Source: Natrinema thermotolerans DSM 11552 (GTDB taxonomy: Archaea > Halobacteriota > Halobacteria > Halobacteriales > Natrialbaceae). Taken from it: 64,000 nucleotides of DNA. Position numbers and translations under genes: made by a program. The notes beneath the pieces are model-generated. The model saw only the letters and a program-made list of their open reading frames with translations. It searched no databases and had not been told where the DNA came from. Within the stretch, counting starts at the first letter, position 1. Every line of letters starts with the position of its first letter. Location of the stretch: contig AOIR01000050.1 in NCBI GenBank assembly GCA_000337115.1, positions 17,736 to 81,735 of the forward strand, given 5' to 3'. Of the stretch, positions 58,637 through 61,759 are shown one piece after another.

Positions 58637-59836
58637 CTACTCGGACTCGTTACAGGCGGCGATGATGACCTCGGGGTCGTCGATCAGCCGATTCTCCATG
58701 TAGTTGCCTTTCCCCTTTCCGGCCCACTTGCGCTCCTGATCGATGATCGAGAGGAACTCGAGTTCCGAGAGGATATCGCGAACCCGACGGAGCTTCAGGT
58801 GTTCCGAGCCGTCCCGATCGCAGAGACGTTTGTAGAGGTCGTACGCCTCGTTGGTCGTCACCGGCGCGTCGTCGCCCTCCTTTTGCTGGGTCAACAGCGC
58901 CATCGCCTCGAGGACGAGTTTCGCGTGACTGGGGCTTTTGGATATCAGTTCGGCCAGCCGGCTGGTCTCCTCGCGCTCGTGTGCCTGATCGACGCAATCC
59001 TCAGTGACCGCCTCGAGGGCGTTCTCCTCGGCGATCTCACCCGCAAAGCGGAGGATGTCGATCGCCTTCCGTGCGTCACCGTGTTCACGGGCCGCGAGCG
59101 CTGCAACGCGGGGAACAACGCCGTCCTCGAGGACGCCCTCGTGAAACGCATCGGACCGTGAGCGCAGGATTTCCCGGATCTGGGTCGCATCGTACGGCGA
59201 GAAGACGTACTCGCGTTCACAGAGGCTCGATTTGATGCGCTCGTCCAGCGAGTCCTTGTACCGGACCTTGTTCGAGATTCCGATAACGCCGACGGTACTC
59301 TCGGTGAGTTTGCCGGACTCGACCGCTCGAGAGAGTTGCATCAGGATGTCGTCGTCCTCGATCTTGTCGACTTCGTCTAAGATGATCAGAGCGACATCGT
59401 AGCAGGTGTCGACGATGTGCCAGAGGCGACGGTAGTATTCGGCCGTACTCAGTCCCGAGTGTGGAATCGAGACATCGGTCTTGGACTGGTCGTTGAGTTG
59501 GTGGCCCGTGGACTGCACTGCTTGCGTTTCCGTCGACTCCTGGAGGCAGTCGACGTACGCGACGCCGATCGAGACGTCGTTGCCCTCCGCGCGCTCGATC
59601 GCCTGATTCGTGATGAACTTCGAACACAGCGACTTCCCGGTTCCTGTCTTCCCGTACACGAGGACGTTGTTCGGCGTGTTTCCTCGAGTCGCCGGTTTGA
59701 TCGCGTTCGCGAGGTTGGTCAGTTCGTCCTCGCGGCCGATGATTCGATCGCCGTCCGGGAGGTGTGAAACCTGCAGCAACTCCTTGTTCCGAAAGATTTC
59801 GTTCTCACTGCCGAAGTAGTCCGTCGAATCCGACAT
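58637..59836 (-). CDS. orc1: Orc1/Cdc6 replication initiator
   Basis: The 399-residue AAA+ protein shows Walker A VLVYGKTGTGKSLCSKF, Walker B LIILDEVDKIEDDDIL, sensor 1 GVIGISNKVRYKDSLDERIKSSL and sensor 2 (HGDARKAIDILRFAGEIA), and a C-terminal winged helix (about residues 310-395, ENRLIDDPEVIIAACNE). It binds the ORB repeats upstream of its own gene and opens the origin. The gene is transcribed away from the origin, which starts right before its ATG at 59836. The winged-helix part lies at the 3' end. Confidence 0.95.
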   Translation of the reverse strand: MSDSTDYFGSENEIFRNKELLQVSHLPDGDRIIGREDELTNLANAIKPATRGNTPNNVLVYGKTGTGKSLCSKFITNQAIERAEGNDVSIGVAYVDCLQESTETQAVQSTGHQLNDQSKTDVSIPHSGLSTAEYYRRLWHIVDTCYDVALIILDEVDKIEDDDILMQLSRAVESGKLTESTVGVIGISNKVRYKDSLDERIKSSLCEREYVFSPYDATQIREILRSRSDAFHEGVLEDGVVPRVAALAAREHGDARKAIDILRFAGEIAEENALEAVTEDCVDQAHEREETSRLAELISKSPSHAKLVLEAMALLTQQKEGDDAPVTTNEAYDLYKRLCDRDGSEHLKLRRVRDILSELEFLSIIDQERKWAGKGKGNYMENRLIDDPEVIIAACNESE

Positions 59837-59881
59837 TCGGGTGCCAGCTCCTTTCGGCGTCGACTACTTAACCGTTCGGAA

Positions 59882-59899
59882 CCGGACTGCCGCTGTATG
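59882..59899 (+). repeat. ORB1 (partial)
   Basis: CCGGACTGCCGCTGTATG is the copy closest to the orc1 start. It has the core but lacks the full ACCCC extension. Confidence 0.7.
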
Positions 59900-59940
59900 C
59901 CTCGAGTTTCGCGGTTTGAGTCGCTAAATTCTGCGAACAT

Positions 59941-59964
59941 ACACCCCAGAGTGCCGCTGTATAG
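59941..59964 (+). repeat. ORB2
   Basis: It starts ACACCCCAGAG and continues with the full core TGCCGCTGTATAG. Confidence 0.8.
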
Positions 59965-59974
59965 GTGAACAACC

Positions 59975-59996
59975 ACCCCTCGGTGCCGCTGTATAC
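59975..59996 (+). repeat. ORB3
   Basis: ACCCCTCGG followed by TGCCGCTGTATAC. It is identical to ORB6 over all 22 bases. Confidence 0.85.
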
Positions 59997-60060
59997 GTGG
60001 GCCGATTGCGCTGGGCTGCCGTCGGAGAACTGCCACTGGACTGGGACCGAGATTCATCGG

Positions 60061-60083
60061 AACCCCGGACTGCCGCTGTATAG
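60061..60083 (+). repeat. ORB4
   Basis: AACCCCGGAC followed by the core TGCCGCTGTATAG. Confidence 0.8.
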
Positions 60084-60196
60084 CATGGCGGTTCCGCCGA
60101 CAGAAGCGAACCAAAGGGCGATGAGCCGCCAGTGGTATCCGTGGCTCAGACGACCGTTATCGGTAGATTCGGGTTCGGTCCGGGGAACCGAACGGA

Positions 60197-60218
60197 TACC
60201 GTCCTTCCGCTGTATCGG
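60197..60218 (+). repeat. ORB5 (degenerate)
   Basis: TACCGTCCTTCCGCTGTATCGG keeps CCGCTGTAT only, so it is probably a weak or decayed site. Confidence 0.5.
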
Positions 60219-60258
60219 ATAAAAAGAGTTTCTATTGGGCGTGAGTCGGCCGGTTTTC

Positions 60259-60280
60259 ACCCCTCGGTGCCGCTGTATAC
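60259..60280 (+). repeat. ORB6
   Basis: Identical to ORB3, and closely followed by ORB7. Confidence 0.85.
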
Positions 60281-60291
60281 GGCGGACACAC

Positions 60292-60313
60292 ACCCCGCGT
60301 TGCCGCTGTATAG
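60292..60313 (+). repeat. ORB7
   Basis: ACCCCGCGT followed by the core TGCCGCTGTATAG. It faces ORB8 across the unwinding region, and the two share 23 consecutive bases, CACACCCC through to the core. Confidence 0.85.
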
Positions 60314-60450
60314 CTGTGATGGTGGCTGTCGACTCGAAGTGGCGGTCCGGTGTTGACTCACAGATCGGGCTGACCGATAGGACAGTGTGGCACCGGGTAC
60401 AGAACTCGTACCGGCACGCAGTAACCCCGACGGAGACCGAACGACTCGGC

Positions 60451-60546
60451 CGAAAGCAAACCGATGATAGCCGAAAGCGGCACCGATAGTAGCCGGAAGC
60501 GACACCGATAATAGACGAAAAGAGGCCGATGACGGCCAAAAGCGAC
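60451..60546 (+). repeat. 21-22 nt tandem repeat in the origin
   Basis: Four full units at 60451-60471, 60472-60493, 60494-60515 and 60516-60536, each of the form CGAAAGC...ACCGATGATAGC, and a partial fifth to 60546. They diverge by several bases each but keep GAAAG, CCGAT and TAG/ACG blocks. They may be initiator-binding iterons or help unwinding. Confidence 0.65.
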
Positions 60547-60759
60547 GGGGAATTTCGTCTCGAGCGACGAACCCATGTCCAATCGCCATTGGACGCTACT
60601 GTAGCCAATTCAGTCAATGGGCGATTACACAGCACTAGTATATATTGTTGGTTATTCTGTTTGGTGATTCCGTCGGTAACGCATCTGCTGTCCAGCAGTC
60701 CTACAGCGATCCGTGAACCGAAATCCAAGGGGCCTCCGGAGAGGCAGAACGCTGCGGCT

Positions 60760-60783
60760 GATACAGCGGCAACGCGGGGTGTG
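60760..60783 (-). repeat. ORB8 (inverted)
   Basis: Read on the minus strand it starts CACACCCCGCGT and continues with the core TGCCGCTGTAT, pairing with ORB7 as an inverted couple around the A/T-rich patch. Confidence 0.85.
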
Positions 60784-60785
60784 TC

Positions 60786-61096
60786 TCTTCGCTACCTACT
60801 TCGTGGATTTATCTATGAGCCGACAGAAGCGTGCGGCAGCAAACGAGCGGCACATCGCGGTGAACTACTTCCTTTCGGCCGGCAACTATCGTTTCGGTCG
60901 CTGGTAGCGTCCCGGCGGGACGACTCGCCGGGGCAGACCTCCACGAGGTTCCGCAGGATCTGCAGCCCCGTCTTGCACGCCACCCCGTCTCGCACGCCAC
61001 CTTTTTCCGCTCGAGTTCGGTCGCATCGCTCTCTCACCTATCGCGCAAAAATCTGGATCAAAACCCGCTCACTCCCGATGGTCGCTCGCGGTCGCC
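60786..61096. other. Intergenic region between origin and hisH, with hisH remnant
   Basis: No complete gene is visible. A + strand frame from 60815 would give a 30-residue peptide (MSRQKRAAANERHIAVNYFL...), which may be a remnant. A degenerate copy of the hisH 3' end lies at 60923-60973. The rest has no recognisable feature. Confidence 0.45.
60923..60973 (-). pseudogene. Degenerate copy of the hisH 3' end
   Basis: These 51 bases correspond to the last codons of hisH (61099-61149). Only about six bases differ, mostly third-position transitions, so the encoded stretch TGLQILRNLVEVCPGE parallels TGLQILRNFVEICADE of the real gene. The copy lacks the stop codon at the equivalent place and has no upstream part of hisH. 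This looks like the leftover of a recombination or integration event between diverged hisH alleles. Confidence 0.7.
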
Positions 61097-61759
61097 TTAC
61101 TCGTCGGCGCAAATCTCTACGAAGTTCCGCAGGATCTGCAGCCCCGTCTCGCCGCTCTTCTCCGGGTGGAACTGCGTGCCGAAGACGTTCCCTGACTCGT
61201 TCGCGACGATCGAGGGGAACTCTCGTTCGTAGTCGGTCGTCGCGACCGTCGCCGCTTCGTCATCGGGAGCCGCGTAGTAGGAGTGAACGAAGTACGCGTA
61301 GTTCCCATCGACGCCCTCAACGAGCGGGTGATCGCGCTCGACCGAGAGTTCGTTCCAGCCCATGTGGGGAACCTTCTGACCCTCGGCGAAGCGAACGTTA
61401 GTCCCGGGGATCAAGTCCAGTCCCTGGACGGCGGAGTCGCCGTCGGTCTCGCCCTCCTCGCTCGAGGTCAGCAACATCTGCATCCCGAGGCAGATGCCGA
61501 AGAGGGGAGTCCCTCGCTCGGCGACTGCGAGGAGATCCTCGCGGAGCGGGTCGGCGTTCTCGACGCCCTCGCGGAACGCGCCAACGCCGGGCAGGACCAC
61601 CCCGTCGGCCGCCTCGAATGCGGCCGGATCGTCGGTGATCTCGACGTCGGCACCCGCACGTTCCAACCCGCGGGTGACACTGCGGAGGTTCCCGAGTCCG
61701 TAGTCGACGACGACCACGGACGCGAGGGATTGCTCGGTCGAAGACGAAACGGCGCTCAT
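61097..61759 (-). CDS. hisH: Imidazole glycerol phosphate synthase subunit HisH
   Basis: The 220-residue glutamine amidotransferase has ADGVVLPGVGAFREG, the nucleophile LFGICLGMQMLL with catalytic Cys, and the His-x-Glu pair in FGTQFHPEKSGETGLQILRNF. It supplies ammonia to HisF in histidine and purine linkage. The ATG at 61759 includes a short variable N terminus; a GTG or ATG further in would start at VVVVDYGLGNLRSV. It is next to the replication origin, and its 3' end is partly duplicated there. Confidence 0.95.
   Translation of the reverse strand: MSAVSSSTEQSLASVVVVDYGLGNLRSVTRGLERAGADVEITDDPAAFEAADGVVLPGVGAFREGVENADPLREDLLAVAERGTPLFGICLGMQMLLTSSEEGETDGDSAVQGLDLIPGTNVRFAEGQKVPHMGWNELSVERDHPLVEGVDGNYAYFVHSYYAAPDDEAATVATTDYEREFPSIVANESGNVFGTQFHPEKSGETGLQILRNFVEICADE

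Follow-up and report, generated by a model that had tools for sequence, protein, structure and literature searches.

The window analysed here, a stretch of 64,000 nucleotides from Natrinema thermotolerans DSM 11552 (genome code G000; 3.9 Mb in 68 contigs), carries an intact hisH gene, which encodes the glutamine amidotransferase subunit of imidazole glycerol phosphate synthase and is separated from orc1 by the replication origin region (Table 1). Throughout, G### denotes compared genomes and L### loci in our set. In alignments, the HisH proteins of relatives are at most 89% identical among named records.

Table 1. Features of the orc1–hisH region, in window positions
Feature	Positions	Strand	Basis or comment
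orc1	58637-59836	-	origin region lies between orc1 and hisH
Remnant flank	60896-60922	-	resembles sequence directly after the hisH stop in single-copy relatives
Copy 2, hisH 3'-end remnant (stop replaced by TCG)	60923-60976	-	47/54 identical to 61099-61152
17-nt tandem repeat where E meets the remnant (two units of CCCCGTCTYGCACGCCA, + strand)	60966-60999	-	direct reading of sequence
Element E, dispersed two-hairpin element between gene-end copies	60997-61094	-	matches in genome, genus and order
E hairpin 2 (CC-AGA-TTTTTGC..GCGGAAAAAGG-TGG), T5 runs in both directions	60997-61056	-	outer pairs covary across families
E hairpin 1 (CCGCGAGCGA..GAGTGAGCGG), directly after the hisH stop	61065-61091	-	consensus fold with compensatory changes
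hisH, intact	61097-61759	-	ORF list and HisH alignments
Copy 1, last 54 nt of hisH	61099-61152	-	

The 3' end of hisH is duplicated

A repeat search found a further, imperfect copy of the hisH 3' end downstream of the gene. The two 54-base copies are 87% identical (47/54), start 176 bases apart and are separated by 122 bases; their local alignment lies far above chance (z = 20 against shuffled downstream DNA). The first-pass annotation, which had described 51 bases repeated about 125 bases apart, was right that the duplication is real and that the remnant has no stop at the matching place, where TCG stands in the position of the hisH TAA. Its description of the differences as mostly silent does not hold for the window's own copy: five of the six changed codons in the remnant are non-synonymous, a pattern consistent with decay.

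Alignment of positions 60900-60990 continues beyond the hisH stop in G004, G006, G010 and G015. In single-copy relatives, the hisH end and the sequence after it align with the remnant and its flank taken together; the simplest explanation is therefore that the remnant is the original hisH end, which has probably been displaced.

A dispersed two-hairpin element separates the copies

The 122 bases between the hisH copies match many positions in the genome. They contain an element of about 100 bases, here called E, in which hairpin 1 is followed by a T run and by the longer hairpin 2, ending in AAAAAGGTGG. The genome of N. thermotolerans holds 26 matches to E at an E-value ≤1, and the core TTTTTGGTCCAGATTTTTGC (up to three mismatches) occurs 18 times in it, with no occurrence of the reversed-pattern control. 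Members of the family are present in 28 of the 29 genomes of the genus and in 76 of 117 genomes of the order. Among 42 aligned members, 10 of the 21 predicted base pairs have changes on both sides: compensatory changes in hairpin 1 affect column pairs 7-35, 10-32, 11-31, 14-28 and 15-27 of the consensus fold, and in hairpin 2 the two outer pairs change jointly between families (CC/GG, GT/AC, CG/CG, GC/GC). A known RNA family was rejected as the identity of E, since Rfam covariance models gave no match at an E-value ≤1 for 11 loci.

E is thus a dispersed, multi-copy, non-coding sequence of about 100 bases with a conserved imperfect hairpin and compensatory changes, and like REP/BIME and MITE-type repeats (PMC2817692, PMC2229807) it is short, extragenic and imperfectly palindromic. 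T5 runs are present in both directions, and at some loci E lies between convergent genes. The cited sections of a Haloferax volcanii terminator study (PMC7237163) describe hairpins close to sites of termination, together with a T stretch and an AGATC motif, and E resembles such haloarchaeal terminators in placing T stretches and hairpins behind genes; those sections do not, however, mention a dispersed element of about 100 bases with gene-end copies.

Three side observations concern dispersed repeats. Natrinema versiforme (G014) and its relatives carry near-identical MITE-like units that contain E of the GT/AC type (L225-L229, L234, L206), with ACGTAGTTGCCGTTCAGTACAG at some borders. E appears to be numerous in G146-G152, the genus of G128, with many matches per genome, making this a good genus for its study. 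Finally, the genome of N. thermotolerans has a second, RNA-like dispersed repeat (L161, L163, L165, around position 1501) of the form GGGAGGGCAGGC..CCCGA [CGACCGCGAGCGACCGAAGGGAGCGAGCGGG] CCGACGACTGATGTGGAG..GGAGGAGTGCTTTT, for which Rfam gave no match at L161 or L163.

E is often accompanied by copies of the upstream gene end

Elsewhere in this genome, too, E begins immediately behind a stop codon, and the upstream gene has its end repeated directly beyond E. Such a repeated gene end accompanies 12 of the 18 core matches, read against control scores, and the same module, a gene end plus E with another gene end after it, recurs across the order and, in this genome, behind about ten further genes. 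In the Natrinema genomes, 47 of 90 E instances have the 3' end of the upstream gene directly behind E, compared with 3.7% for mismatched-pair controls; as many of the 90 are orthologous loci in related species, the independent events are fewer than 47. Order-wide, a gene-end copy was found at 12 of 29 E loci (mismatched-pair control 0.4%). To our knowledge, REP, BIME and MITE repeats are not accompanied by a duplicate of the adjacent gene's 3' end.

Each E locus duplicates a different gene end, and within the genus the copy usually begins 1-5 nt past E. The junction on the right side is constant, at the end of E, whereas the upstream point varies between genes. When E abuts a gene's stop, a copy is present at all but three loci (L195, L202 and L219) among the 90 instances; a complete E directly after a stop and without a copy is rare (L195, with L202 and L219 decayed). 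E placed otherwise is mostly without a copy, for example where it abuts the stop of a convergent gene or in the MITE-like family of G014 and others. Tandem arrays of gene end plus E are found at L185, L217/L218, L222/L223, L261 and hisH of G150, and at L208/L220, L217, L222, L192 and L250 the last gene-end copy is itself followed by E, complete or in part.

Outside E, gene-end repeats are rare. An unbiased scan of 2,432 ORF stops in 784 kb yielded five, two of them with E although only four E matches were present. Both E-associated repeats were hisH cases, and one of the other three (of about 2,430 ORF ends) is apparently made of origin repeats. The hisH case is one example of a widespread haloarchaeal pattern that is apparently undescribed: we found no description of E or of haloarchaeal gene-end copies in the open-access literature.

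The copies differ as alleles do

In 32 gene-end pairs with a secure reading frame, 22, 10 and 79 differences fall on codon positions 1, 2 and 3, respectively. The excess at the third position (79 of 111; p = 5e-16 against one third) is the pattern of alleles under coding selection, so that at many loci the second copy either belonged to a working gene until recently or is refreshed by exchange. For the class as a whole, then, the differences are mostly silent, as the first-pass annotation had said of hisH. Identical or near-identical copies at L190, L192, L241 and L182 indicate that copies can arise within one genome or are homogenised. A diversity-generating retroelement was considered and rejected, as the differences, read from the sequence, are not adenine-specific.

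Sites with and without E in relatives

The two-copy hisH layout is common to the window and its closest relative, G026 (z 13.8), and is present in decayed form in G007 and G018 (z about 9.6). In contrast, G004 and G005, whose Orc1 protein is 99% identical to that of the window, have a single hisH end and no E. A vestige read by eye in G014 and G025 was dropped after a shuffle test (z -0.8 and 1.6). As a separate observation, the remnant of G026 (L144) contains a 23-base internal duplication.

In G128, a member of another haloarchaeal family, hisH is followed by E and a second hisH end that is coding-intact; its congeners G146 and G152 have one hisH end and a downstream flank that matches that of G128. 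The hisH copy of G128 starts at a different codon, which points to a probably independent event at the same gene. Arrays at hisH occur in G150 and G151, and E with a copy in G149; the final short hisH end of G150 belongs to another allelic type than the first two. In G152, hairpin 1 and the T run already stand behind the single hisH end, so that hairpin 1 may be a terminator native to hisH, with hairpin 2 alone as the newcomer.

Other genes offer similar comparisons. E and a copy are present at the SDR locus of G000, G026 and G004, while G005 has lost E there and keeps a decayed copy. At L002, the single end of G005 matches the downstream, presumably native, end type of G000. The diphthine--ammonia ligase locus takes its name from plasmid records; here the four species differ in how gene-end types are paired with downstream flanks, the change-over lying at E. 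E therefore marks sites at which gene ends and flanks become reshuffled. L219 has only one gene end; a partial E comes after it, and then the flank that also borders the two-copy G026 locus (L250).

How could a gene end come to lie on both sides of E?

The reading that we prefer, at a probability of about 45%, is that E is palindromic and non-autonomous, that its insertion at the 3' ends of genes produces a long duplication of the target, and that the hisH remnant is the displaced original end. On insertion at hisH, E, with its roughly 100 non-coding bases, and another version of the hisH 3' end would have come to lie before the original end, pushing it about 175 bases downstream. The gene would now terminate with the E-linked copy, and the displaced native end, no longer needed, would be decaying. 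More generally, insertion of E at a gene 3' end would duplicate about 40-110 bases of target and would be retained where the gene's stop is rebuilt, after which the direct repeats could expand, contract or exchange through recombination. The duplication, the E family and its association with gene-end copies, the compensated hairpins, the tandem arrays and the single-copy orthologous sites are observed, whereas the mobility of E, its joint arrival with the copy and the choice of native copy at loci other than hisH are inferred.

Insertion is favoured by the rarity of E without a copy behind genes and by G004 and G005, in which hisH has no E behind it. Counted against it are that no transposase, excision product or fresh insertion was seen, that 40-110 bases would be unusually long for a target duplication and that the E-like sequence beyond the last copy at several loci is consistent with tandem duplication of a gene end that already had its terminator. 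Of the three models that remain, insertion, tandem duplication and import of a foreign gene end carrying E, we regard insertion as slightly the more likely. A broader proposal, which we make tentatively, is that of an order-wide hairpin family that repeatedly captures or duplicates the 3' end of any gene behind which it settles, builds arrays and lets genes swap 3' ends between species, a mechanism that would be undescribed in prokaryotes.

Tandem duplication is possible, if somewhat doubtful. E, or its left half, would be an old terminator whose strong hairpins make replication slip back by 40-110 bases into the end of the gene, yielding repeats of gene end plus E, the last E decaying afterwards. 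Slippage is indeed favoured at the several loci that have E-like sequence behind the last copy, and it would suit the true arrays with several units, the constant right junction at E's end with its gene-dependent upstream point, the single end with partial E at L219 sharing its flank with L250, and hairpin 1 with its T run behind the single-copy hisH of G152. Yet the common starting state that slippage leads one to expect, a complete E after a stop without a copy, is rare, and the window's close single-copy relatives G004 and G005 lack any E behind hisH.

We consider it unlikely that homologous recombination with another species brought in an E-bearing 3' end and left the resident end as an allele-replacement scar, the explanation that comes nearest to the first-pass annotation's idea of recombination with a hisH allele. 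The concentration of copy differences at third codon positions, the reshuffling of SDR and diphthine--ammonia ligase end types and flanks between species around E, and the differing allelic type of the last short hisH end in G150 all speak for such import. It is at odds with the identical or near-identical copies at L190, L192, L241 and L182 and with the mostly non-synonymous codon changes in the window, and on its own it gives no account of why E lies at the junction every time.

It is very improbable that a provirus or other integrated element once attached at the hisH 3' end and was then lost, with attL and attR as its traces. The first-pass annotation had raised a mobile element at this site, and the part of that idea that survives is that the copies flank a small mobile-looking element, a layout repeated with the ends of other genes. 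Such integration would also be expected to duplicate a gene end and to keep the intact gene on the side of the element. A classical integrase attachment site is not supported here, the 'element' being only about 100 non-coding bases within the 122 bases between the copies. The same E of about 100 bases lies between copies of many different gene ends, so that there is no common attachment core shared by all insertions, and this largely refutes the provirus reading. Least probable of all is an old local duplication specific to hisH and without wider meaning, which the first-pass annotation would have seen in a two-copy structure common to all close relatives: G026, G007 and G018 do share it, with differing decay, but G004 and G005 do not, the intervening E and the same layout at many other genes speak against it, and the genus-wide association (47/90 versus 3.7%) refutes it.

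Comparison with known systems

The closest architecture that we found is that of fungal mitochondrial mobile ORFs, which carry C-terminal gene ends (atp6, atp9, cox2 and nad3 in Glomus; atp6 in Allomyces). These mORFs bring their own version of the 3' end, the hybrid gene is functional, the native end is displaced downstream and the copies differ mostly silently; they encode a homing endonuclease and span several hundred bases to 1 kb (PMC3630166). At hisH, likewise, the element-linked end is in use and what is probably the native end lies downstream with its native flank. Unlike mORFs, E comprises about 100 non-coding bases, resides on an archaeal chromosome and stands behind many genes, and the 122 bases between the window copies leave no place for a homing endonuclease. 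Casposons and CRISPR arrays (PMC4046053, PMC6614799) share with E the direct target repeats that flank the inserted sequence and the possibility of repeat-insert-repeat arrays, but the duplications at E loci are longer and gene-specific, and the insert is a conserved hairpin instead of a varied spacer.

If E and the gene-end copy do arrive together, haloarchaea possess a non-coding route of insertion at gene 3' ends that leaves the genes unbroken, and with it a source of mosaic gene ends. The many sites with and without E form a large natural set for separating target-duplication, slippage and allele-import models. They also call for caution, as gene-end remnants near origins or islands in these genomes need not signal integrated elements.

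The origin region

The first-pass annotation had further proposed that the origin or its flanking DNA entered by recombination with a hisH allele. We reject import of the origin, and a role of the origin in the duplication is not supported: on both sides, orc1 and more distant genes mostly share 92-98% identity with G004/G005, orc1 and most of hisH behave as vertically inherited, and none of the other E loci examined is linked to the origin. The block that diverges from G004/G005 consists of the 3' part of hisH and the intergenic origin region, and no better donor for it was found among 40 relatives. As a side observation, the origin region turns over between close species: across the orc1-hisH intergenic stretch (59840-60900), G000/G026 and G004/G005 are only about 50-80% identical, compared with 92-98% in orc1, and G004 and G005 are 81-89% identical to each other.
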